Source of the DNA: Fragilariopsis cylindrus CCMP1102
Lineage: Eukaryota; Bacillariophyta; Bacillariophyceae; Bacillariales; Bacillariaceae
DNA length: 64,000 bases
Reading direction: 5' to 3'
Assembly: GCA_900095095.1 (NCBI GenBank)
Contig: FMBT01000452.1
Span: 26,169-90,168, forward strand
Part shown: positions 47,770 to 64,000 of the stretch, in pieces
How positions within the stretch are numbered: the stretch's first letter is position 1
How the letters are laid out: every line of letters begins with the position of its first letter
Made by a program: the position numbers and the translations under genes
Notes under the pieces: generated by a model
Seen by the model: the letters and a program-made list of their open reading frames with translations, nothing else
Databases searched by the model: none
What the model was told of the DNA's origin: nothing

Positions 47770-47858
47770 AACTTGTTATTTAAAAGCTGCTGTACTGCTC
47801 CTCAGCGTCTTAGAAAGACAGAAGAGTCAGCAGTTAACCTGCCTATGTATGTATATGG
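47770..47858 (+). repeat. Direct repeat, right copy
   Basis: Matches 46702-46790 (AACTTGTTATTTAAAAGCTG, then GCTCCTCAGCGTCTTAGA and AACCTGCCTATG). Confidence 0.8.
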
Positions 47859-49389
47859 TAGCTAATTGCTATGCCAGGTGGTCAGGGACAGCCTACTGCC
47901 TGCCTACTTTATCATATAGTATAGTCATTAATAGACAATAAGTATATGTGAACCAACCACAGCAACATGAATGATGGAAACAGGTAGGCAATATGCAATG
48001 ATATCTTATAACGTCTAACAGGTAGGCAACCTGCAAGTCAAATGCACCCACAGTACATTATCAAAATGTGCACTGTACACATAATGATAATGTGAAAAAA
48101 CATGTACACATGTACACATCATCATCATATGACACAACAAGTTGAAGAATACATGTAGTGTACATATCATCATCATCATCATCATGTGTAACAACTTAAT
48201 GACAACATAACAGGCAGCCACCTGTTGCATCAGTTCTGTACAATTAGTACTCTGGTCACACACAAAAGGCAGTTCCTTTACCTTGGCCCTTGGGTAACAA
48301 ATAATGGTTCAAAAATTTGGTTTAGGCTATAATTCAGTTAATGCACACATCCATGTACAATGACTGACCTTTAACACAATGTGTTACTAGTTAATTTGTT
48401 GCAGCTATTATTTTTGCTAGACAAACATTTCCCAGTGAATAAAGGTATGGAACCCATTATATGCTCAATCAGCCCAAAACCTATTATTAGCTCAACTTGA
48501 CTCAAAAAACGTTTAGCGAGGTATACCATGTAAACCAGAGGCCAAATCAACAGTGGCTTTATGTGGGATACTTTGTCTTATGAGTATTTGTAACCTGTAA
48601 AAATTGGTGTGAGGGCGTTTTCCAACCAACAGTGACTATTTTAAATATTGTGGTCCTCGATCACTTTATATGAGATATCTTGTTCAGGACACAAAGCAGG
48701 GTAGAACTTCCAAGAACATGCTTCTTTTTTGTCAGGGAGAGTTCCTTTACCTAATCATGTGTGTAATAAATAATGGTTCAAACATATGCTGGAGGCGCTC
48801 CTTCAGTTCATGAACACATGCATGTACAATGACTAGCCTTTTAATAACGCACCATGTTACTAGTTAATTTTTTTATGGCTATTATTTTTGCTCAAAGAAC
48901 TTTTTTCCAGAAAATAAAGACATGGAACCCATTATATGTTTAATGCAGGACGACATTGGTGAACAGGGTTTTTCTTTCTTCGCAAAAAGCCAAAATCTGA
49001 ATTTGGGCCTATATTAGCTAAAATTAATTAAAAATTATTTTGCACAATGTGTACCATGTGAACCAGAGGCCCTACTAATGGAGGCTTTAGGTGGGTTAGT
49101 TAATTTTATGAGTATTTGTGTGGATGTTCACCTGTCAAAATTGGTGTGGGATCATTTTCCAACCAACAGTGACTATTTTAAGTTAAGTACAGTCCTTGAT
49201 TGGTTTTTTAATGAGTATTTTTGGAAAACAGGGGTAAACTGCAATTACATCCAAAATAATGGTGGGTTGGAATGATGATGCTTCCCATTCACAAGTAATA
49301 TTTCCTAGTGAAGACAGTGAATCAATTCTGTGTTCTAATTTACATGGTGGTATGTTTAGATAGTGAAATGTATGTATTTTGGACCACAT

Positions 49390-50044
49390 TTACAATTTTT
49401 TGATCAGAAATAATGAATACAAAATAGCTCAAGTAAAAGGGTTGCACAGGACAACACCAGATGGGTTGGGTGCACTAGCATCCACATAGTGTACTAGAAC
49501 ATTGTGTTTGCCTCCTACATGTTTTCTGTTCATGTGGTTGTGGAATGAAATTCATTTTGCTGGTGTGCATGTGGAAGGCACAAAAACACAAACACAACAA
49601 CAACATGATTTTTGATCAAAAGAATTGAATACAAAATATCTCAAGTAAAAGGGTTGCACAGGACAACACCAGATGGGTTGGGTGCACTTGCATCCACATA
49701 GTGTACTAGAGCATTGTGTTTGCCTCCTACAAGTTTCCTGTTCATGTGGGTGTGGAATGAAATTCATTTTGATGGTGTGCATGTGGAAGGCACAAAAACA
49801 ACAACATGATTTTTGATAAGTAATGAATACAAAATATCTCAAGTAAAAGGGTTGCACAGGACAACACCAGATGGGTCTGGTGCACTAGCATCCACATAGT
49901 GTACTAGAGCATTGTGTTTGCCTCCTACAAGTTTCCTGTTCATGTGGGTGTGGAATGAAATTCATTTTGCTGGTGTGCATGTGGAAGGCACAAAAACAAC
50001 AACATGATTTTTGATAAGTAATGAATACAAAATATCTCAAGTAA
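49390..50044 (+). repeat. Satellite array, copy 3 left part
   Basis: Three monomers of about 198-210 bp carry markers GGACAACACCAGATGGG near 49450, 49661 and 49859. It is cut by the transposon within a monomer and continues at 55935. Confidence 0.92.
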
Positions 50045-50147
50045 GGCGCGTTCCAGCTCGATGCGGCGGTTTGAGGGACACTCGCGACTCAAAATTTTGC
50101 TTCCGCGTGGAGGTATTTTTTGTTTGATTTTTCCACATGACGCGACA

Positions 50148-50285
50148 ATTATTTGTTTGCTTCCTTGAGAATTTAGTTTCGTGTCCTTCTTCACAACAAC
50201 GTCGAAGTAACAAAGTACCTGTGTTCGTCGACGTTGTTGTCAAGAAGGACACGAAACTAAATTCTCAAGAAAGCAAACAAATAAT
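50148..50285. repeat. Large near-perfect hairpin inside the left transposon end
   Basis: Arms 50148-50205 and 50228-50285 (58 nt each) are reverse complements with two mismatches, separated by a 22-nt loop. A CAAC/AACC tetranucleotide tract follows directly. It has no counterpart in the right end. Confidence 0.95.
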
Positions 50286-50811
50286 CAACCAACCAACCAA
50301 CCAACCAACCACATAGCTACCAACCAACCACATACAAGGTTGGGGTAGCATAAGAGACAAGCCATTACGAATTCGTTCTAAGTACAGTACAGTGCACATA
50401 CAAGTCGACAGACGCATCATCGGAGTGACACATCGGAGTACACTGTCGAGGTGCAAGATACAAGCGAAACGCGTTTCTTCTATTAAGGTATATACTAAGA
50501 TCCAAGCCAAGCCAAGCGACTAAGACAACAGCCAGTACAAGAGTGGGGGTAGCATAAGAGACAAGCCGTTTCGACTATCTTCTAATTACAGTACATCGCA
50601 CATACCACACGTAAGTATACCAAATTCGTACGCAGTAAGTGTTGTTCTGTTGATTCAAATTCGCGATATTCACCACCACTAACAAACGACTGGTTATTTT
50701 TTGTGTTTAATTCGACGTTGACAAATCAGAGCTACACTTCTTGTGTTTCAATAGGTCGACTCACACGGAAGGGTATTTAGAAGAACAGTATTTATAACAG
50801 TACGGCACGAG

Positions 50812-51080
50812 ACGCGAGTAAGTGATGCTACGTTAATCGACAGCATTCAATTATATTTTCACTAACAAAGTACTAGTTATTTCAAGTCGATTTTGATAAC
50901 TACTTCGAAATCGAGCGTCACTTCCTAATCAATCAGTACGCAGTACGACACACAGTACGGCACGAGACGCGAGTAAGTGTTGCTCGTTTGATTGACAGCA
51001 TTCAATTATGTTTGTACTAGCAAATTACTAGTTCTTTTGCGACATTTTTGATAACTACTTCGAAATCGAGCGTCATTTCT
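50812..51080 (+). repeat. Left subterminal repeats of the transposon (2 units)
   Basis: Two ~115-bp units each run from GACGCGAGTAAGTG, through GACAGCATTCAATTAT, to GATAACTACTTCGAAATCG and AGCGTCA. They are inverted with respect to the units at 55035-55630. Confidence 0.9.
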
Positions 51081-51284
51081 TTTCGATCCGTACGAGACGC
51101 GAGTACGGATCGAATCATTGTACGGTCTACTGCAACTGTCAATAGAAGACCTTATTCTGCTTCATCTTCTAACTCTTCTTCATCTTCCTCCTCTTCTGCT
51201 CTGATAGGATACGATCGTTCTTACGATCCTACGAAGCTTCCGGTGAGGTGCTCAGTATCTTACGATAGGATACGATCGTTCACA

Positions 51285-54200
51285 ATGAGTGGAATTACTA
51301 CCAAAAAGAAAGGACGCAGGAAAGCAGCCAAGGTGGTGGCTAATGCTGCAGTTGGGGTGACGGCGACTGCAGTTTCACAGAGTGAAAGTAACAAAAAAAG
51401 AGGACGACCAGCTAGAGATAACAGAAAGCCTCCACCGGCAACTGCTGCGCCACCTCCAGGTGCTTCACGACAATTGTTATTATCACCACCATCATTACTA
51501 TCACCGGCCTTTGCAGTGTCTGTATCATCATCTTTGACCTCCAGTTCCACTCCAAGGAGGAAGGTTGTTCTTCCTGCTGATACTGTTACAGGTAATGATC
51601 ATGAAAGTTCTCCAAGCAAGTTTCTATGTTTAGAACAAGAAGAATTGAAGGTAGACTTAGCCTGTGCTCTTGAAGTTTCGGCAGAGAATTTGGTAGAGAC
51701 TCTGACGTCTCTCTTGACTAAATTAAATGATACAGCTCCATCTTCAACAGCGGTGGCATCAGCGACTGCGACATCACCGACATCTCAACCTGTAGTATAC
51801 TCCGATTTTACCCGTCCGTCTTTAAACATTGCATTTGATGAAGATGCTTTCAAGGTTGCTGATCGATCCGATTATGCGGCAAGGAAGGGTAAGAATAGAG
51901 CTGTAAATAATTTAGTACAAACTATATTAGGTGAGCACTGTTCTAACCACTATTCACAACAACAACTAGTATTAGCATTGCACACTGCGTCTAAGGATCC
52001 GCGTGTTAGACCTTTTTTCAAAAGTGCAGGACTAGCAGACGTTGTAGATTTAGCAGCCATGCGTTTTCATCATGAACAAATCAATCGTATTTTGAAAACA
52101 ACAAACGACTCGAAAAAGAAAGGTAGTGGTACCGACGATGTACGCTCTTACGAACAATCTATTCTTTCAGCAATGGCCGAATCACCTATTTCCTCTAATC
52201 GCACAACATATGTTCCTACTCTTGCTTGTCGTACAAAATTGTTCCCCGATATTCCCCCGAGAACATTTGAAAAATCTATGAAGAGAGCCAAAATTCATCG
52301 CAAGAAGATGCGCGACAGTACTAATACTCTCTTCAGCCGTGTACTAAAACGTTTGGGGCGTAAGAAGGTGACACCTGAGTTACACATGGAGTTTTTACAC
52401 TGGTTGGACAAGCATCATATGGTCATACAGAGTCCGTTAGCTTCAGATACTTTATTGGTACCCGGCGGTAGCATTCGTGGGGTCAAGAAACGTGTAAACA
52501 AGATCTTACTTCAAATACCTGTCCGGGAGCTGCACAACGACTTAATAGATGCCGATCCCTTGATTGGTCTAGCTGGAGCACGTGATTGTAATGGAAAAAT
52601 TTTGATATCCGATACAAAATTGAGGGAATTGTTGCCGCCTCATTTACGAATGATGAGTGACCGTTATAAAATAATGTGTGGGTGCGAACCGTGTATTCAA
52701 ATGATCAACCTTCAACAGAGCTATAACCGGTTTATTTGTTACCGAATCAAGGATTTCAAGGAGATACGCGATGGTTTCAATCCAAGAACGAGGAGATATA
52801 TGGCGGCCGACGAAACCCTCAAGAAATACCAGGACAAGTTGCAGCCACAGGGAGAGGCTAGGTTTAAGACCGCCAAACTAGCGATGGTTTGTTGCTTGTG
52901 TGCTCCGCCTGATGACAGGTTCCAATCTCTTCATCAATTGGACTGTGTTACGGGCAAGTGCAACGCTTGTCCTGGATTCGACCGGCCTCCTGAAGAATTG
53001 ACTATGAACAATGATATTTCTTTCCATTTGTACGATGTCCTCCCGTCCTGCAGCATACACAACATGTTGCCAAAATTTCCGCCAGTGGTTGATGGGGAAC
53101 GACACGTCCAGACAAAATCCTGTGTTGAATGCGATTTGCTTTTGGAGGCGGACCCAAAGTATGTACGGGGTGGATTTTACAAAAGGAAATATTTAACCCA
53201 AAAAAAGTGTGGGTTCCAAGAATTCTTCACGGAATATTACCTCCCACATTTGAAAAAATATACTTACCACCGATTTTTGAAGATTATACTCAGCAAATCG
53301 AACATCGAAGACGTCCGTTTTAGTTGACTACAACCGGGCGAGGTTATTGGTTCACGAGATTACGCGGAACGCTTACTAATGAAATTCCACATGGAAATCC
53401 AGAGTGAACACTTCGGTCAGGGAAGAGATCTATCAATTGAGGGTAACGACATCAAATTTTATCCTGTTGGAGAAACAGAAACAACCTCGCATTTCTATTC
53501 CTTCCTGAAAGATTCGAAAATACAAAATGCTGCCACGACGGATAAACACATGGATCGCTTAATTAAAATCTTAAAAGAAAAAAAAGTCTTGAGTGAACGC
53601 TTATATGAAACAACCGATGGTTGTGGCGCTCAGTATCGATCAGCAACAGCGCTCTGGTTCTTATCAGGATTATCGACCAGACATAATATTGTAATTGATC
53701 GTTCGTTTGGTGCTCCCGGTCATGGTACGTTATTCTAAACTATTGTGTCTAAAATATGCTTTGCTTGGTTTTGTCATATCTAACTTTTATTTATTTTATT
53801 TCCATTGGTATTACAGGAAAAGGTATCGTGGACGGCGTTAACGGTACTGATAAAAACTTATTGATACGTTATTCTGCAAGGGAGCTGAAGCAAGCGATGG
53901 ATAGCATTGCCGAAGAAGATGCTGTCAATGACAAAAAACGTTTTGCAGCACATAGCGTAAACGAAATCGGTAAAGAATTTTCATTAGCTGAAGAATGTGC
54001 CCGACTGTTGCGTATCGGGAGATCCGGGGGGGTTAAATCGGGAGGAAAATCAGCAAAGAGAGAAAATTCGCGGGCCATCAAACACCACGAGTGGTTAGTG
54101 TGGAAAAAAGAAGATACAGTTTCGGAACTGAAATACAAAACTGTTGATTTTTCAAAGGAAGCGAAAGAAGCTGGTGGAACGTCAAACAAAAGATACCATG

Positions 54201-54922
54201 TATATTGCTGTCCTGAGTTGGGTACTGGTCGTGTTGCTTTAAGAAGAATTCCATGTGCTTGCGTAGCGTGTGATACTACTATTCGATTACCATGGCAAGT
54301 CGGTGTGAAGGCACCGAAACAACCAAGATTCGGTACGGTAGCCGACTGTCGATATCATAAAATACTGGGAGCACGAAATGAATGGGACGTTGTTAAATTA
54401 GCAGTCGATCACAGTAAAGCAAACTTAGACGACGTAGACACGGCGAGAGAAGAAATTCTTGTTTCGTTAAGTTCCAATATAGCAGCGAATATTGAAATTG
54501 GTGGATACGGTGCTATTGTAACAAGTGATCCTGAAGCTAGGGATGGATATTGGATGGTTGAATGGACAAGTGAATCATATACCTGTCAAGAAACAGGTAA
54601 GCTTGTATGTGATGGTTTCTACTTGAATGAAGTGAAAAGAGGTCCAAAATGGTGGACACCCAGTGGCCAAGCAGTAACTATTCCGTTATTCAATATTGTT
54701 ATGTCGGATGTAAAGATGGATCCAATTGAGGTGGGGAGGAATATGCCCTCATCATCTCATGTTAATAAGGTGCAATGCCTGGAAAAAGAAGCTCTGCGAG
54801 TAGAAGAAGAGAGCCATAGCTATATTTTTGACGAGATTTTTAGAAGAGAAACTCTAGAATATGAAACAAGACCAGAAGCAGTGGAAGATGATGAAGAGGA
54901 GTCAGAGGAAGGAGCAGAATAA
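51285..54922 (+). pseudogene. Sola-like transposase, one in-frame stop
   Basis: The first ATG in the open frame is at 51285. The frame also runs upstream, but only with non-ATG codons inside the transposon end. A basic, low-complexity N-terminus is followed by cysteine-bearing segments (CGCEPCIQM, CVTGKCNACPGF, KSCVECD) that may bind zinc. An in-frame TGA stands at 53325-53327. The same frame continues with SRDYAERL (likely first catalytic Asp), EIQSEHFG and TTDGCGAQYRSATALWFLSG (second Asp). An intron at 53725-53816 (92 bp) is removed to give GAPGHGKGIVDGVNGT. A C-terminal Cys-rich part (RIPCACVACDTTIRLPW) and an acidic tail end at 54922, inside the right subterminal region. Without the TGA it would be about 1180 aa. 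The TGA makes this copy probably inactive; a sequencing error is possible. Confidence 0.8.
53725..53816 (+). other. Intron of the transposase gene
   Basis: The donor GTACGT follows CCCGGTCATG; the acceptor TATTACAG precedes GAAAAGGTATCG. Removal creates the HGKG motif in frame. Confidence 0.9.
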
Positions 54923-55034
54923 GGTCTTCTATTGACAGTTGCAGTAGACTGTACGTACCATGATTCGATTCGTACCTTACAGTACAGTACAGTACAGTAC
55001 TGTATGTAGTACTTGCGTCTCGTACAGATCGATC

Positions 55035-55630
55035 TCAAGAAAAGAAATGACGCTCGATTTGGAAGTAGTTATCAAAAATGTCGGAAAAGCACTACTATTT
55101 TGCTAGTACGAACATAATTGAATGCTGTCGATTAACGTAGCATCACTTACTCGCGTCTTGTACCGTACTGTACGTCGTACTCGCGTCCTCGTATTGATCG
55201 ATCGCAAGAATTGATGCTCGATTTCGAAGCAGTTCACAACATCGACTGGAAATAACTAGTAGTTTGCTAGTACAAATATAATTGAATGCTGTCGATTAAC
55301 GTAGCATCACTTACTTCGACTTATTAATCGTACTGTGTGTCGTACTCGCGTCCTCGTATTGATCGATCGCGAGAATTGATGCTCGATTTCGAAGTAGTTA
55401 TCAAAATCGACTTGAAATAACAAGTACTTTGTTAGTGAAAATATAATTGAATGCTGTCGATTAACGGAGCATCATTTACTTCGACTTAATCATGTAAATA
55501 CCGTTTGAACGCAAGAAAACAAGCTCGATTTCGAAGCAGTTGTCAAGAATGTCGCAAAACAACTAGTATTTTGCTAGTACCAACATAATTGATCGCTGTC
55601 AATTAACAGAGCAAAATTTACCGCGTAAGG
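55035..55630 (-). repeat. Right subterminal repeats of the transposon (about 4 units)
   Basis: Units begin TGACGCTCGATTTCGAAGYAG or similar and continue ATAATTGAATGCTGTCGATTAA, at about 55045, 55210, 55378 and 55525. They are the reverse complement of the two left units. Confidence 0.88.
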
Positions 55631-55934
55631 AATTTTTTTAATCCCGTGATGCACTGTTTTCTTTTTTTTGATGACGTACGCTTGTACACGATATGGGGCA
55701 AATTCTACAGAGAGAAGTACTGGAGCTTTGCCGACACCACCTACACCTGTCGATGCGTCTTGATTCAATGCATGGATTATGATTGGTCAGTTATACGACC
55801 AATGAGCTTCTGTAGAAGCTAAAAATGCCCCCAATTGATAGTACTTCACTGCATAGCGCGTGTTGTAGAAAAGCGTCTGTCCGCAGATTGTCCTTTATTC
55901 CACAAAACAGCGCCGCGTTCAGCCGGAACGCGCC

Positions 55935-56370
55935 GTAAAAGGGTTGCACAGGACAACACCAGATGGATCTGGTGCACTAGCATCCACATAGTGTACTAGA
56001 GCATTGTGGTTGCCTCCTACAAGTTTCCTGTTCAATGGGTTGTGGAATGAAATTCATTTTGCTGGTGTGCATGTGGAAGGCACAAAAACAACAACATGAT
56101 TTTTGATAAGTAATGAATACAAAGTATCTCAAGTAAAAGCGTTGCACAGGACAACACCAGATGGATGGGTTGGGTGCACTAGCATCCACATAGTGTAGTA
56201 GAATATTTTGTTTGCCTCCTACAACTTTTCTGTTCATGTGGTTGTTGAATAAAAACTGGTTTGCTGTTGTTGCATGCACAAAAATAACAAGATTTTCGAT
56301 CAGAAATGAATACAAAATATCTCATTTGAAAGGGTTGCAGAGGACAACACCAGATGGGCCGGGTGTACTA
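55935..56370 (+). repeat. Satellite array, copy 3 right part
   Basis: Continues the monomer broken at 50044. Markers GGACAACACCAGATGG occur near 55953, 56145 and 56343, with spacing of about 190-198 bp. Confidence 0.92.
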
Positions 56371-56871
56371 GCATCCATTATATCTATACCTACAAGCTCC
56401 ACATAATGCTTAGGTTTCTATGGAGGTTATGAAGGTATAGGGTTGCATTAACCGCAAAAGGGGCCATTTAGGCCCAAAAACAGGGTTTTCCACTTTTGTG
56501 CGCACCTAAGCTGGATCATCAACACAAAGCACCAAGAATAAGATCCCTTTGGTATTTATGGCGCATTCTAATCTTATATTTTTGGATGATTCACCTTTTT
56601 GAGTGTACTGTATGTCCACAAAACCCTGCAAATGGGCAATTTTTGGGGGTTATTTGATCTGTGCTGTGTGTGAGCCTACATTATGAGATATCAATTAGTA
56701 GGCTTACAGGACTAAAAAACATAACAGTTCTCCATTCAATAGGTCAGTTGTAACTTCATTGTTTATTTCTCCAGAAATATGACTTTTTAGGTCTATATAC
56801 TTGATGCTAAAGCTGTTATTATATACCAGACTAACAAATACTGGTAAAATTTGGGCATGATTTAGTTTTTA

Positions 56872-57640
56872 TACTGGCATATTTGGGCATAATTTAGTTT
56901 TATATTCGTACATGGAATCATAACAAATAAGTACTGCTGTACGCATCATTTTTCATTATCTTCTTTTTCAAATCTTCTCTTTCCTATTTCGCGCTACCAC
57001 TACCTGTATTGTTAACGCGAGTAGACTGTTGTGATTTGAAAATTGGCGCTCGGGCAAACTACTGTTTTCAGCCTTAAATAGAAAATGTACTTCCCAAATC
57101 TTCAAAAACAAATCGTTTCGCTCATGGTTACTTCCAAACTACCATCACGTACAAATAGATCGGCAAACACAGCAAATAATCACTCCAAAGAAATCATCTA
57201 TAGTAAAGAAACTACCACACAAGAAACAATGTCAACATCGATTTTACCATTAGTAACTACAGCAGGCTACTTTCGATTGTCCTAGTATCGATGTTAGTTC
57301 CCTTTTTATTTCAGCAGCAAATTGTGTTGTTGGGAATGGGAATAGCATAAATGATTTAGACTTACTTCCAACTGATGGTCCAGGCTTGGGTGTTTCGGTG
57401 TACGAATCATCTACTGGTAACTATGTGCACTGCCTGTATTTGTTAACGTGAGTAGACTGTACTGCCTGACTGGAGACTCTAGAATTAAATCGAATGAATC
57501 AAAAAATGGAATCAAATCAAGTACTACTACCGGTATTCTAAATATTTTCATGGTCTTAATTTATGTTGTACAAATAGTTTTACATTACTATTTAATTGTA
57601 TTTAATTTGATTTATATCAAACATATAATCTTACAATCTA
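56872..57640. other. intergenic region with exon-like remnants
   Basis: A 27-bp direct repeat (CCTGTATTGTTAACGCGAG...) occurs near 57003-57030 and again, with two differences, near 57433-57461. Between them are an ORF with ATG at 57085 and a segment after TTTATTTCAG (57313) that reads like an exon: VVGNGNSINDLDLLPTDGPG. This could be a small two-exon gene or a gene remnant; no family is recognised. Confidence 0.4.
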
Positions 57641-58366
57641 TTAAGATAAAATATCATCTTGAATCTGTTCAACCAATATTGTTAGTAACTTAATTTGACG
57701 TTCACATATTGCTTGTCCTAAAATTGCAGTATTAGTATTATTGTTCCGACTTGTTGTAGTAGTCTTTGATTTTGTTTTCATCTCTAATGATAATGATGAT
57801 GGAAGTAATCCATTACCAATATATATCATTGTATTACTATATTGTAAATCATTACGACGAAGTGTATTAAATACAATATTATCTTTGGGATATCGACTTT
57901 TATAATTGATTGTCGTATACACCTTCTTTAGTTGCATATTTGCTTCTTTAATTAATGATATTGCTTTTTGTTCTAATTGATGCATTCGTTCTTGGTTAAT
58001 TTTTTCTTTTAATAGTGCAACACCACCCACAACTGAACCGTAGTTATTTCTTAGTTGTGAACGTTGATGGTATATTCTTGATTTATATTCAATATCATTT
58101 ACTTTTTCTAATAGTGTAATTGCTTTATTATATTTACGTTCGATGTTGATCATATTCCTTTGAAATTTTACTAGTGAAGTTAAACATTCCTGTAATAATT
58201 TTCTTGTTACCATTATTTGTTCTTGTTCTTTGTTATTATCATTATTGTCGCTGTTTTCGCAGCACATACCACAGCTGCCACTGAGATATAATGTTGTGAT
58301 ATCAGTTCCGGTAGCAGAGACGGAAGTTCTTATCTTGAGAGTTGATGATGATTCAAATTGAGACAT
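57641..58366 (-). CDS. Predicted coiled-coil protein, unknown function
   Basis: Intact 241-aa ORF with ATG 58366. After a Cys-containing N-terminal region (LSGSCGMCCEN) the protein is mostly helical and charged. QIMVTRKLLQECLTSLVKFQ and KYNKAITLLEKVND show heptad-like spacing, as does KEKINQERMHQLEQKAISLI. An Asn-rich loop precedes a final helix, ICERQIKLLTILVEQIQDD. No signal peptide or membrane segment is visible. The sustained coding-like composition, apart from one Asn run, supports a real gene, but there is no family assignment. Confidence 0.6.
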   Translation of the reverse strand: MSQFESSSTLKIRTSVSATGTDITTLYLSGSCGMCCENSDNNDNNKEQEQIMVTRKLLQECLTSLVKFQRNMINIERKYNKAITLLEKVNDIEYKSRIYHQRSQLRNNYGSVVGGVALLKEKINQERMHQLEQKAISLIKEANMQLKKVYTTINYKSRYPKDNIVFNTLRRNDLQYSNTMIYIGNGLLPSSLSLEMKTKSKTTTTSRNNNTNTAILGQAICERQIKLLTILVEQIQDDILS

Positions 58367-59784
58367 TGTGGTTGGTGATTTACAAAAACTATGTATCTGT
58401 GTAGGAGAAGCGGTTTTGTTTTGTCTTCTCTTGTATGCTTTGCATTCGATTTATTTTGTGAGAAAGCAAGACCGTCACGTGTGAAATCTAGTTCACGACG
58501 AGAGGAGTTCTACTATCATTCTAATCACTTTTTACTAGCCATGCAGTACAAAGTACAGGAGAGGCAAAGCGTGTATTCATCTCAAGCAGTTTTTTACGGT
58601 GGTCTAATCGTAGTACTGAAATCTATTCCTATTTTTGACATCCAAACCCACTTTACTTAATTAATAAGTGATCTCATTAAGTAGTCGTGCGTAAGCTGAC
58701 CGCGCATTCAGCCTATGCATTTTTCGCAAGTTCTCTTATGATTCGAGCTTAGTTTGTGTAGTACAGTACTAGTAGTGTATTCTAAGGCTGAATAGTGTCG
58801 CTCAAGCGAAGTCCAAAAAATAGAACAACACGAGCAAGCTTTCTGATTTTGAACAAATAAAAAATTACATTTTCATCTCAAAAAATAGAAAAACAATCAA
58901 AACAGAAAAGCAACCAAAACAAACAAAACCAAAATATCCAAAAAGAAGAAGATATAACAAAACCAAACTAAGGGAATAAACAATATACTGTAGCATGCAC
59001 TTTTTGTCTTCGTTCTGCGTGGTAAAAGAAAAATATCACTTGATAATCCCACTTTTAGCTTCAACAACAGGAGCCATATTACATTCGCTTCACAACTAGA
59101 GATATATGGTTCTATTTTGATAGCACGGTCATTCACTGGACGATTCATTCGATTTGTCGAATTGAGTGAGTCGATTCGATTAGAGAACAGGGCACAATAT
59201 GATGTGAGAATGGCTGTTTTTGGAGTCACGCGATGACAAAAAAGTGGCTCGAGGAGAATAGCGCTTCGTCTCTTGTCGAGTATAGGAAAATTCGCACTCG
59301 ACAGATATTTATAAAAAAACATTATGCAGTCATAAAAAGCGAACGATCGCATTAGCTATACTCGTTTCACTCGTACTGTAGTAACAAATAGACATCCTTT
59401 CTATTGTCGTTGATTTTATTGTCAACAATAACATTACGTATAAGTATTGTAGAACAATACATACATTGCACATCCAAATCACACATTCAATCATTCATTA
59501 CCAACATAATACGCCATAACTATAATACTGTACTGCAGTATCAATCCATTATCAACTCGTCACCTAGCTTTCGATCAATCATCGATCGGTATCTTCGACG
59601 ACATCGCCGTATTGCAGTACAGCGCTCAATAATAAGGAAATTGACTGTAACAATTTGATAGATGCGACGTGTGATACGATATATATTTTATCTCCCCTGA
59701 GATCAACGGCGCAACAATATATTTTAGCAGTAAAACAATTACCGAACGTGAGAGTGAGAGAGTCATCAAGAATACGGACGGAAG
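58367..59784. other. intergenic region
   Basis: No convincing gene is seen. A 151-codon minus-strand ORF at 58897-59352 has a hydrophobic end but no conserved look. The right part is the probable promoter of the ferric reductase-like gene. Confidence 0.45.
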
Positions 59785-60912
59785 ATGAAGACATCAATCT
59801 GTGAAGCTAACAAAATTGACAGAAATGAGACTAAGGATAAAACTTTACCATCACGCACATCTCCTTGGTGTGGACGCGTATCAACATCAGTATTACCAAA
59901 GATTAAAAAAATTGTATACCGATACAATAACATTGAATTTAAATGGTTAAAGTTCACTCAAATACTATGCGGTATCTATATACTAACTGTAACTTTTACA
60001 TATTCGGGAGCACTAGGTATATTTGGAGGTGCACGTGATCGGAAAACAAATTTATTGTTGATCCAAATAATGATGTAAATACTAGGAATGGAATTATTGA
60101 ATACAATGTCAATCCTTTATTTGATAGTAACGGTGATGGTGCTACAATTTCTCGTGCAATTGTTGCATCTTCAACAATACAAATGTTGCTATTAGGTCTA
60201 TCGGTACGTATCAATGCGGCGTCATTCGATTTTGTGTGGGCTTTACCTACATATTCTTTTTGGTCAGGACGTTTTTTGTTCCTCTTCTCATTGCTCATTT
60301 TTTACCTTCTTTTCTGATCATTTCATTAGAGATTTAGTGGATATTTTATGTATCCAGCGATTGTGTGCGTATTTTGGACGAAATTCCGTGCAGCACAAGC
60401 TTCCATTGATAAGACACCTCTACGTGTACTTTGTAATCAAGATACACATTGATTGCATGTTTATTGTGGATGGGTTATATTTATTGACAGTTGTTTGCAT
60501 GCAATATTCCATTTAATACGTTGGTCACTTCAAAGAAATCTCAAGAGATTACTATTCAATCATAATTCAGGTATAACAGGATCAATTGTTATTATATCAA
60601 CATTCATAATTGTTATCCCCATGACAGTATTGAAGAAGCAATTGAAATTTGAAATACGAAAATATGCACACTATTTCTTTTGGACATTTTGCATTGCGAT
60701 GTCATTTCATGCACCATATCAAGCAATAACTTCAAAAAACAACAACAGGTTTAGATGCCAGAGAAGATGATGATGATGACACCGATAACATTGATGGTGG
60801 TGGTGGTGGTCTCGTCAACAACGTCGATACGACGAACGACATCATCACTATTAACGGTGGCGATGGTAACGAGGACAAGAACAAGAACGAGTCACTGCGC
60901 GAACAGGCCTAA
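59785..60912 (+). CDS. Ferric reductase-like protein, N-terminal transmembrane half
   Basis: ATG at 59785. The first membrane segment is FTQILCGIYILTVTFTYSG. One A added to the A4 run at 60043-60046 continues the frame through NPLFDSNGDGATISRAIV. An intron at 60204-60329 (GTACGT...TTCATTAG) follows, then RFSGYFMYPAIVCVFWTKF and LRVLCNQDTH. An in-frame TGA appears where GAA (Glu) would be expected; an extra T plus a missing A explains it. Next come LHVYCGWVIFIDSCLHAIFH and YAHYFFWTFCIAMSFHAP. The paired His residues in these two helices are the expected b-heme ligands of the ferric reductase/NADPH oxidase family. The open frame runs into an Asp/Gly/Asn-rich stretch and stops at 60912, before the FAD and NAD(P)H domains. 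Those are found at 63123-64000 on the same strand. Confidence 0.78.
60204..60329 (+). other. Intron in the ferric reductase-like gene (5' half)
   Basis: The donor GTACGT follows GGTCTATCG; the acceptor TTCATTAG precedes AGATTTAGTGG. Removal keeps the frame (GLSRFSGYF). Confidence 0.85.
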
Positions 60913-61092
60913 GGAAAGAAACACAAGAATAGGAATTAGGAATAAGAATAAAGCTAACATTTTTTTTTATGATTAATATTACAAGTAACTCTTCTAGGGA
61001 TTTCTTTTTATTAAAAAAAATTACAATATTATCATTCCCAATCCCCGTATCCCTTCCTTTTATTTACGTATAGTTGTTTAATTCCCATTTAA

Positions 61093-62367
61093 TCATTCAT
61101 CTTTGTCGTCCATAGATGAATTTAGACTAGTGTTCAAAGATGTACACTCTGTATCGAAAGACGTATCTGTTTTAATAGAATACCTCTCAATAAAGCTTCG
61201 ATATTTGCCGACTGCACGAGGTTTTTGATCCACTTCGAGAGGTTTTTGATCCATCGATGCTGTAGAAAAAAAAGACATAATACCCGACTTCTTACTTTTT
61301 GTCTTCCTTGCAGCAATCAGTTCCTCTTCAAATTTTTCAAGGTCGTCGGAACGCTGTTGTAGGTAATCTGTCAACTCCACATCTGTCAAAATTGGGGTGG
61401 TAACTGTATCATATATTCTTGTTTCTGAATCAGTGAGGGAATAGTTCAATTCGACATCATATTGAAGTCGGAGGTACCAAATATATAAGTGATACCATTC
61501 AGGTTCATTATAATGTTCGAATGGTGTACCTTGAATCAGAGGCATCGCAGATAATGGTCGACGGGAAATACGATGCAATTCAGTTTCTAATAAAACATCC
61601 TTTTGCCGTTTCATACCATCATCTTGTCTAATCACAATGTTAGCGTAAACATCATCCTTGTCTTCTGGCTGCCCCGCTTTGCCACGTATTTTACACTCAG
61701 ATGAATTATCCTGCCATTCCTTGTTTTTCGTACATGTTCCATACAGCATGTTGAAACACCATTTGAGCTAAAATTAAATGAAAAATAATGGAATGAATAC
61801 ACCAAAAAAAAAATGAGCACACGTGTGATAGATGGAAGAATGGCTACAATTAACAAGAAAGACGACGTGAACTTACCGTACAACCTCTTCAATAAATGCA
61901 ATAATATTTTGTTGGTCGTTAAACTGTCTGGTTTTAGCCCAACTAAAGTAATGGTCGCTATCATATAAAACTCGAAATTGTGCCATAGCAACGCTCATTG
62001 CTTCCTGTTCGTCACCAGTTTCTTCTAAACAAGCAGCATACGTTGCCTGTACTCCTTCCCAAAGGAATGAACAAGCAATGTGACGGCATTCTCCTGATCC
62101 CTGATGCCCACATCCAAGATCGAGAAAACGATGTAGCATTATTTTATCCCTAACCATTCGATTCCTTTTTTGAATCTCCCCACTATCTAATTTTTTAATA
62201 TCGCCATAAATGGTACGTTCTGTTTTTAATAAAAATGGCAGCCAAACTTCATTTGGATTGTCTTCGCGCCATTCTTTTTGTAATCGTCCTGACCACCAAC
62301 TCAGACGTCTGTATTCAGTTTCTGTTTCAGGATTACGATTGAATTCATAACTACTATGGTGAACCAT
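61093..62367 (-). CDS. Two-exon protein of unknown function, antisense to the ferric reductase locus
   Basis: ATG at 62367, with an intron at 61768-61876 (109 bp, GT-AG on the minus strand). Exon 1 carries RRLSWWSGRLQKEW, NEVWLPFLLKTERTIYGDIK and a Cys/His-containing stretch, FLDLGCGHQGSGECRHIACS. It then continues with SWAKTRQFNDQQNIIAF. Exon 2 needs one extra A at its start (TTT at 61762-61764 on the plus strand) to read KWCFNMLYGTCTKN. It continues with PLIQGTPFEHYNEPEWYHLY and a charged, helical C-terminus with SGIMSFFSTASMDQKPLE. The product is about 388 aa. The composition is ordered, without the low-complexity runs of its neighbours, so the gene is very likely real. No membrane segment or known domain is recognised. 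Confidence 0.75.
61768..61876 (-). other. Intron of the antisense gene
   Basis: On the minus strand the donor GTAAGT follows GTTGTACG; the acceptor AATTTTAG precedes CTCAAATGG. Confidence 0.8.
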
Positions 62368-62540
62368 GGTTTTATTCTGGATGGCGGTGGAGGAGGAGGA
62401 GGAAACAGCAATGGTCTGTGATCGATTATTATGAATAGATTAGATTTAATTTGCTATGATTTGATATCCGAGTAATCAGTACACAGTAACCAGACAAAAT
62501 TTGATTAGGTCAGGTGTGGTTTTTGAAATGAAGAAATTTC

Positions 62541-62655
62541 TTTTTTGTTAGAGTTATAACACGAGATGTAGTTTTTATTTTTTTGTTAGCGTTATAACAC
62601 GAGATGTAGTTTTTATTTTTTTGTTAGCGTTATAACACGAGATGTAGTTTTTATC
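62541..62655 (+). repeat. Three tandem 39-40-bp units
   Basis: Units of TTTTTTGTTAGMGTTATAAC followed by ACGAGATGTAGTTTTTA, nearly identical. Confidence 0.95.
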
Positions 62656-62665
62656 GAAATAAATG

Positions 62666-62730
62666 ACAAAATGGTGTCAGTGCTTTCATTATTACTTAAG
62701 TATTATAGACGTACTGTGACACCATTTTGT
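62666..62730. repeat. Inverted repeat, 14-bp perfect arms
   Basis: ACAAAATGGTGTCA at 62666-62679 pairs with TGACACCATTTTGT at 62717-62730; the loop is 37 nt. Candidate operator, terminator-like hairpin or small MITE remnant. Confidence 0.9.
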
Positions 62731-63122
62731 GTATATAAAATTTTAAAAAAATTGAACCAAGATAGAACTAAGCTGGGCTATAATATATTGTCTAAGTAAA
62801 AGAGGTGCAATGTGGAGTATCGAGTTTGTGATGGTCAAGCTAAGTAAAAGAGGTGCTCACGCAAAATATCAAGAGAAAATGAGTTATTTCCCGATCACGA
62901 ATCAATCACGAGCCTGATTTGCCATCACCCAAAACGATTTCTTCTTCTCTCTTCTTCTTTATTCTTTCCATTTGACGATGGATGCTACGATGTGTAGAAT
63001 AGGTTTGATGATGGATGCTACGATGTGTAGAAAAGATCAATGAAAAACGAGAACACTGAAACGAGAACACTGAAAAGTGTAACAGTGACATCAATGAAAG
63101 TGAACACTGAAAAGTGTAACAG

Positions 63123-64000
63123 CTGATGCACAAATTGAATACGGTACGATTGATGATAATGATGGAAGACGACTACGACAAAAACGACGATCATTATCAA
63201 CCACAGCTAATGGTGGATTCTGTGCATTTATTTTCCCAATACTTATAATTTCATATGGCCTTGATGCATTATATGTGAAGTGTTTTATGTCAGAACGTAT
63301 CAATACTGTTAATTATAAAGTAATGCAAAGTGGTGTTGAATTGACAATGCCTGTATCTAAACGATTTCAAAATGGACTTATATCCGGTGGATATGGCTAT
63401 ATAATGCTTCCATGGAGTAAGTCATACGTCTTGTACAGATTGTTCTACAGTGAGGGTTGTTCCATTAAACCTAACGTTTTTCTATTCTTCTCTATTTAAA
63501 TAATATTTCAGTTGACAAGAATCAATGGCATGCTTTTTCATTGTACGAGAATCCACTTGATGCATCAATCCGTCATATGTTCATAGAAAAGAGGGGTGAT
63601 TGGACAACAAAACTGCACAAGAAAATCAATAGTTGTAGTACCACTTCAAGACCAGTATGGTTATCTGGACCATTTCCGTCCCCATATAACAATGCAATCA
63701 ATTTCGATAACATGATCCTAGTGGCAAGTGGAATTGGTAAGTAGATATTGAGACTGTGAAATTATTTGTCCTAATGATATCATGTAACTCATCTTCTCTT
63801 GTTGCATTGCATTACTCTTTACAGGGATAACACCGGCGTTGAGTGCTATCGAAGCGCATCGTGATTCACGTAGAATCAATTTGATTTGGGTTGTCCGTGA
63901 CGCTTCAATGTTAGTCTTCTTTTTAGAAAATGCAAAGCTAGATAAAAAAAGGTCTCAATTTAATCTTTTATACCGGCAAAGAATCCTTTACCAGACTCAA
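63123..64000 (+). CDS. Ferric reductase-like protein, C-terminal FAD/NAD(P)H half (runs off window)
   Basis: After a likely acceptor (GTGTAACAG at 63122) the frame reads RRLRQKRRSLSTTA and then the last membrane segment, GGFCAFIFPILIISYGLDAL. SGVELTMPVSKRF, SGGYGYIMLPW and (after an intron at 63417-63511) DKNQWHAFSLYENPLD form the FAD-binding barrel. RPVWLSGPFPSPYN and NMILVASGIG lead, after an intron at 63737-63824, into ITPALSAIEAH and INLIWVVRDASMLVFFLENA, the nucleotide-binding part. The HAFS and GxGxTP-like (GIGITP) motifs are those of ferric reductases and NADPH oxidases. These move electrons from NAD(P)H through FAD and heme across the membrane. An A7 run at 63944-63950 (one A too many) breaks the frame shortly before the window ends. 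There is no start codon for an independent gene upstream. Confidence 0.85.
63417..63511 (+). other. Intron in the ferric reductase-like gene (3' half, first)
   Basis: The donor GTAAGT follows CTTCCATGGA; the acceptor ATATTTCAG precedes TTGACAAG. The frame is kept (MLPWIDKNQ). Confidence 0.9.
63737..63824 (+). other. Intron in the ferric reductase-like gene (3' half, second)
   Basis: The donor GTAAGT follows GGAATTG; the acceptor CTTTACAG precedes GGATAACACC. Removal creates SGIGITPA. Confidence 0.9.

Follow-up and report, generated by a model that had tools for sequence, protein, structure and literature searches.

An insertion of mosaic, gene-bearing DNA interrupts exon 2 of a ferric reductase-like gene, most likely a pseudogene, in the diatom Fragilariopsis cylindrus

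Introduction

Near the end of one contig of Fragilariopsis cylindrus CCMP1102, two same-strand parts of a ferric reductase-like gene flank a two-exon gene that is read from the other strand. Is this a single reductase gene with an exceptionally long intron that hosts a nested gene, or has the reductase been broken? We address this question in a window of 64,000 nucleotides (GenBank assembly GCA_900095095.1, contig FMBT01000452.1, positions 26,169 to 90,168 of the forward strand), whose own numbering is used below unless a contig is named. The contig that holds the window is labeled C534; C723, C171, C70 and similar labels denote other contigs of the same assembly. The genomic comparisons were made within this one assembly (67.9 Mb in 818 contigs), with the assembled sequence as their sole basis.

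A first-pass annotation of the window had placed the heme/transmembrane half of the reductase ahead of the FAD/NAD(P)H half on the plus strand, and Pfam searches bear out this arrangement. A Ferric_reduct-like segment at 60453-60770 (+) has an E-value of 1e-4 and 22.8 bits, under the curated cut-off of 28 bits. A FAD_binding_8 segment at 63475-63744 (+) scores 24.1 bits, over its cut-off of 22 bits.

Here we argue that the interval between the halves is an insertion. It is highly probable that the C534 reductase is interrupted in exon 2 by an approximately 2.48-kb mosaic of ectopic gene-bearing DNA, and that it is a dead copy with an intact counterpart on C723. Sequence comparison establishes the insertion, its empty site and the disabling lesions. 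From these, the C534 reductase is most likely a pseudogene, and probably that of one haplotype.

Results

An empty site and an intact counterpart

BLAST searches with the flanking DNA against the same genome revealed the empty site on C723. Window 59700-60731 aligns with C723:6800-5764 at 94% identity, and so does window 63207-64000 with C723:5765-4975. The C723 matches to 59607-60731 and to 63207-64000 abut, with a 2-base overlap: C723 reads CAAGCAATACCTAATGGTGG at the site where C534 has about 2.48 kb extra.

The C723 reductase is unbroken. Its five exons (splice sites picked by hand) encode 652 amino acids, and exon 2 passes straight through the insertion site. For the last intron, a first candidate donor gave a frame of 640 amino acids with an odd end and was rejected; the second gives the 652-residue reading, whose C-terminal end has what we take to be the form typical of ferric reductases. 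In this protein NAD_binding_6 (35.5 bits; cut-off 22.2 bits) and FAD_binding_8 (27.2 bits) are both over the cut-off in one chain, and Ferric_reduct, with E 1.6e-4 and 22.1 bits, is under it. A sequence search matched the protein to eight solved sequences at E-values up to 0.001; the best of these are putative ferric reductases (8cak, 5o0x), with NOX/DUOX chains next.

A more distant relative tells the same story. On C70 is a paralogue with 55% identity across 373 aligned residues, and it too runs unbroken through the insertion site. Because both C723 and C70 are continuous there, the state of the C534 site without the insert is most likely the ancestral one.

Lesions and boundaries of the C534 copy

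What becomes of the reductase frame at the insert? The second half had been thought to start at 63123. The reductase sequence instead resumes at 63207, and 63120-63209 belongs to another gene. On the upstream side, the reductase frame enters the insert and ends at a TGA at 60768-60770. A heme-only protein ending at 60912 had been proposed as the product of a rearrangement; the open frame that ends there lies in another frame and belongs to an asparagine/aspartate-rich (Asn/Asp-rich) gene fragment. The idea of a rearrangement that broke the reductase thus agrees with the empty site on C723, but its supposed product does not exist in the reductase frame, which closes at 60770.

The insert is not the only defect. 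Relative to C723, there is a -1 frameshift in exon 1 (about 60049), an in-frame TGA in exon 2 upstream of the insert (Table 1), and two more 1-bp differences in exon 4, near 63944 and near 63987. Given the frameshift and the TGA, splicing out the insert would not restore the C534 reductase. The last base of the window is also the end of C534, so the 3' end of the gene lies outside the contig.

Table 1. Features of the interrupted reductase locus, in window coordinates
Feature	Position	Strand	Remarks
Insertion without counterpart in C723	60732..63206		2,475 bp from the limits of the BLAST matches; uncertain by at most 3 bases
Reductase exon 1	59785..60203	+	alignment with C723; 419 bp, against 420 bp in C723
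Reductase intron 1, GT...AG	60204..60329	+	same place in C723; splice sites picked by eye
Reductase exon 2, 5' part (heme/transmembrane)	60330..60731	+	C723 alignment; Ferric_reduct match below cut-off; final 3 bases ambiguous
In-frame TGA	60450..60452	+	Arg codon in C723, Lys in the C70 paralogue
Reductase exon 2, 3' part	63207..63416	+	with the rest to 64000, 94% to C723:5765-4975
Reductase exon 3 (FAD-binding part)	63512..63736	+	domain match; C723 alignment
Reductase exon 4, truncated by contig end	63825..64000	+	C723 alignment
Insert piece 1a, Asn/Asp-rich gene fragment (180 bp)	60732..60911	+	longer at C508, C577 and C59
Insert piece 1b, antisense-gene block (the gene between its 3' and 5' flanks)	60912..63119	-	C171 matches
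Insert piece 2, 90-bp scrap of a gene, probably for an M11 (gametolysin-like) peptidase	63120..63209	+	C26 and C563 matches
Antisense gene exon 1	61877..62367	-	95% to C171; 42% to the C265 paralogue
Antisense gene intron, GT...AG	61768..61876	-	C171 and C265 copies have it at this position too
Antisense gene exon 2	61093..61767	-	frameshifted after the intron; stop at 61632

Composition of the insert

Most of the insert has a close relative elsewhere in the genome. Window 60721-63130 matches C171 at 98.0%, the bases shared with neighboring pieces being overlap, and pieces 1a and 1b are joined in C171 as in C534. Piece 1a is a scrap of a larger gene. Window 60721-60911 is 73-74% identical to an Asn/Asp-rich gene at C508, C577 and C59; in C508 and C577 the open frame extends past the break point of the fragment. 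The C171 version of the fragment is longer (L027 6020-5312) and matches these three loci at 79-87%.

Piece 2 comes from a different source. It is 94-95% identical to C26:56041-56133 and C563:22112-22204, is not present in C171, and overlaps the reductase match by its last 3 bases. Pfam finds nothing in the open frame to which it belongs; a downstream open frame at the C26 locus matches Peptidase_M11 (E 3.6e-7), and it is from this neighbor that piece 2 takes its putative M11-peptidase label. C171 holds 124 bp of the peptidase gene, at 96-97%, from immediately upstream of piece 2. The peptidase sequence stops at CAGCTGATG in C171 and resumes at the same 9 bases in C534, at two different loci. 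The searches turned up no complete donor.

The C171 locus (L027:5312-6149) is itself a mosaic of 124 bp of probable M11-peptidase sequence, about 708 bp of Asn/Asp-rich sequence and the antisense-gene block. The block also contains repeats. A dispersed repeat of about 145 bp (60958-61102) overlaps the end of the antisense gene; besides C534 and C171, a query ending at 61080 found it in 31 places among the matches listed, at 75-94%, and in each of the 5 loci inspected it reaches 61102. The antisense gene's 5' flank has a unit of about 38 bp three times in tandem, at 62541-62654.

The antisense gene

The two-exon gene reported between the reductase halves is present, but its open frames do not join in frame in the C534 copy. 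Relative to C171, one base is missing near 61721. Exon 2 is therefore out of frame after the canonical splice, and translation would end at 61632. At the place of the missing base the C171 copy keeps the frame, but it loses it later within a run of A; these frameshifts in C534 and C171 are single-base differences, which sequencing error could mimic. A paralogue on C265 (43% identity over 314 aligned positions) has its intron at the same place, and by this comparison the antisense gene is a member of a real family.

Pfam gave no match at E up to 1 for either C534 exon, nor at E up to 0.01 for the C265 paralogue in spliced form. Neither of two possible origins gained support. For a viral source, four stretches of viral_contigs matched the pattern of the exon 1 query, one of the four with a match of 18-19 residues, which is too short. 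Insertion as a processed retrogene does not fit a gene that retains its intron, at a site where any target-site duplication is at most 2 bases.

Discussion

Evidence against an interrupted, dead haplotype

Several observations weigh against the view that the C534 copy is a dead allele interrupted by filler DNA. Pfam-family searches of the genome did not list C723, which turned up by DNA search. The small 1-bp indels of C534 could be sequencing errors. An open frame at 63104-63416 (+) carries the peptidase scrap in frame into the reductase, an outcome with a 1-in-3 chance, and a new protein made from this fusion is formally possible. Of 476 codons, 475 were compared between C534 and C723, a gap having removed the other; 32 show silent differences and 27 a changed residue, nonsense included. 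A few of these 27 fall at the frameshift or the junction and may be alignment effects. By codon position the differences number 21/6/36. This pattern implies that much of the divergence took place under constraint, so loss of function would be late. The CAGCTGATG repeat, reconstructed across two loci, is of the kind that a transposase leaves. Finally, window 47830-50039 also matches C723, at 81% only, and much of window 47830-56900 is repeated elsewhere in the genome, among the matches listed. Collinearity to the left of about 56.9 kb is therefore weak support for allelism.

Allele or paralogue?

Is C723 the other haplotype of the C534 locus? Probably so, judging from the aligned sequence: C723 is collinear with window 55936-60731 and 63207-64000 at 91-94%. 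The competing view, which we hold to be unlikely but the strongest of the alternatives, is that C723 is a paralogous segment and that the genome contains one broken and one intact duplicate. The 6-9% divergence is at the high end of the contig pairs measured, identity falls to the 81% noted above, and further large indels separate the two regions. Yet the two contigs align collinearly for about 5.5 kb at 91-94%, and a reductase DNA query yielded only C534 and C723 as near copies, C70 being next at 68% among the best candidates listed.

How diverged are haplotypes in this genome? Four other contig pairs show 92-93, 95.0, 96.0 and 96.9% identity, similar to that of C534 and C723. A fifth, L034/L035, found via the dispersed repeat, has one part at 97.7% and another at 81.9%. 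All five pairs are assumed to be allelic. For Fragilariopsis cylindrus, haplotypes are reported to be highly diverged (PMC5634323).

Other differences of copy number and content were observed among these contigs. A segment of 174 bp upstream of the reductase (59433-59606) is missing from C723. About 5.9 kb at 50040-55936 are seemingly missing from C723 as well, with the C723 matches on either side overlapping by 384 bases; most of this segment recurs, among the matches listed, at 78-92% in many other contigs, and it is probably a transposable element. Elsewhere, L049, L050 and L051 (C508, C577 and C59) are three versions of one region, with C577 and C59 99.8% identical and C508 and C577 94% identical. 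This suggests that some loci of the assembly are present in more than two versions.

Origin and age of the insertion

How did a mosaic of gene pieces enter the reductase? Since the C171 and C534 pieces share CAGCTGATG, the simplest inference is that the antisense-gene block first inserted into peptidase sequence with a 9-bp duplication of these bases. The composite of the block and its right peptidase flank would then have been copied into reductase exon 2. The insert may well have come in as filler DNA while a break was being repaired, with no transposase involved. Its identity to C171 is 98%, against about 94% between the reductase parts of C534 and C723; at equal rates, the insertion is therefore younger than the split of C534 and C723.

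A different account, somewhat less probable than paralogy, invokes a DNA transposon that captures genes, whether Mutator-like or Helitron-like: it would have carried the insert, and its first landing, in the peptidase gene, would have left a target duplication of 9 bp. Mutator-like and Pack-MULE elements make target duplications of 8-10 bp. The sharing of CAGCTGATG between the end of the peptidase sequence in C171 and its restart in C534 fits this account, as does a block that is a mosaic of host gene scraps. The ends of the block do not. No gapless inverted repeat of at least 14 nucleotides joins them in C171; of three inverted-repeat pairs in L027:2950-6200, the one that spans the block (16 nucleotides, 88%) has one arm outside it, and one block end is ordinary gene sequence. 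Moreover, the near-identical block occurs in two places only, among the matches listed, and the duplication at the reductase site does not go beyond 2 bases. A bolder proposal is that a mobile element without terminal repeats, one that makes 9-bp duplications, captures pieces of host genes here, and brought both a gene with an intron and the peptidase scrap to the reductase, creating the peptidase-reductase frame at 63104-63416. We regard this as improbable.

Could the structure be an artifact? That C534 is mis-assembled, with unrelated sequence joined into the reductase, is a very slim prospect. The locus does lie at a contig end, but two mis-joins within one contig would be required, the flanks carry lesions of their own, and the insert differs by about 2% from C171 and by 5-7% from C26 and C563 and hence is not a pasted copy of either.

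The least tenable explanation is the one first put forward, an intron of 2.2-2.5 kb that hosts the nested antisense gene and is spliced out when the reductase is expressed. Combining 4 GT donors (from 60600 to the in-frame stop) with 118 AG acceptors (60900-63259) gives 4 open in-frame pairs, 60749 with 63167 for example, so frame by itself does not exclude splicing. We nevertheless give this explanation almost no weight: the exon is continuous at the site in C723 and C70, which have no intron there, the upstream frameshift and TGA would remain among further frame-breaking lesions, the donor suggested near 60866 lies past the in-frame stop that begins at 60768, and the pieces of the insert match separate loci.

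Comparison with known systems

The C723 protein resembles the ferric reductase and NADPH oxidase-like flavocytochromes in having FAD_binding_8 and NAD_binding_6 above the cut-off. It differs in that Ferric_reduct reaches 22.1 of 28 bits, and the C534 copy is broken. The insert shares with gene-capturing transposons, namely Mutator-like elements (PMC6446971) and Helitrons (PMC4778049), its joined fragments of host genes and perhaps the 9-bp repeat, which is deduced for an earlier site from two different loci. Unlike these elements, it has no detected terminal inverted repeats, two near-identical places among the matches listed and a repeat of at most 2 bases at the reductase site.

Further parallels are an insertion-disrupted allele with an intact counterpart and a pseudogene made by insertion. 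As in the former there are two diverged copies, one of them interrupted, although at this locus the allelic phase is presumed. As for the latter, C534 has an empty site in its homologue and independent disabling lesions. At the C534 locus neither the two reductase halves nor the 'nested gene' should be annotated as normal genes. An apparently exceptional gene structure is better described as an insertion: its empty site is known, an intact counterpart exists and a relative of the inserted DNA can be traced. It offers a clear example of a gene-fragment mosaic common to several loci of one genome. On this comparison, the C534 reductase has the look of a gene copy disrupted by a commonplace insertion, rather than of one whose long intron hosts a nested gene.

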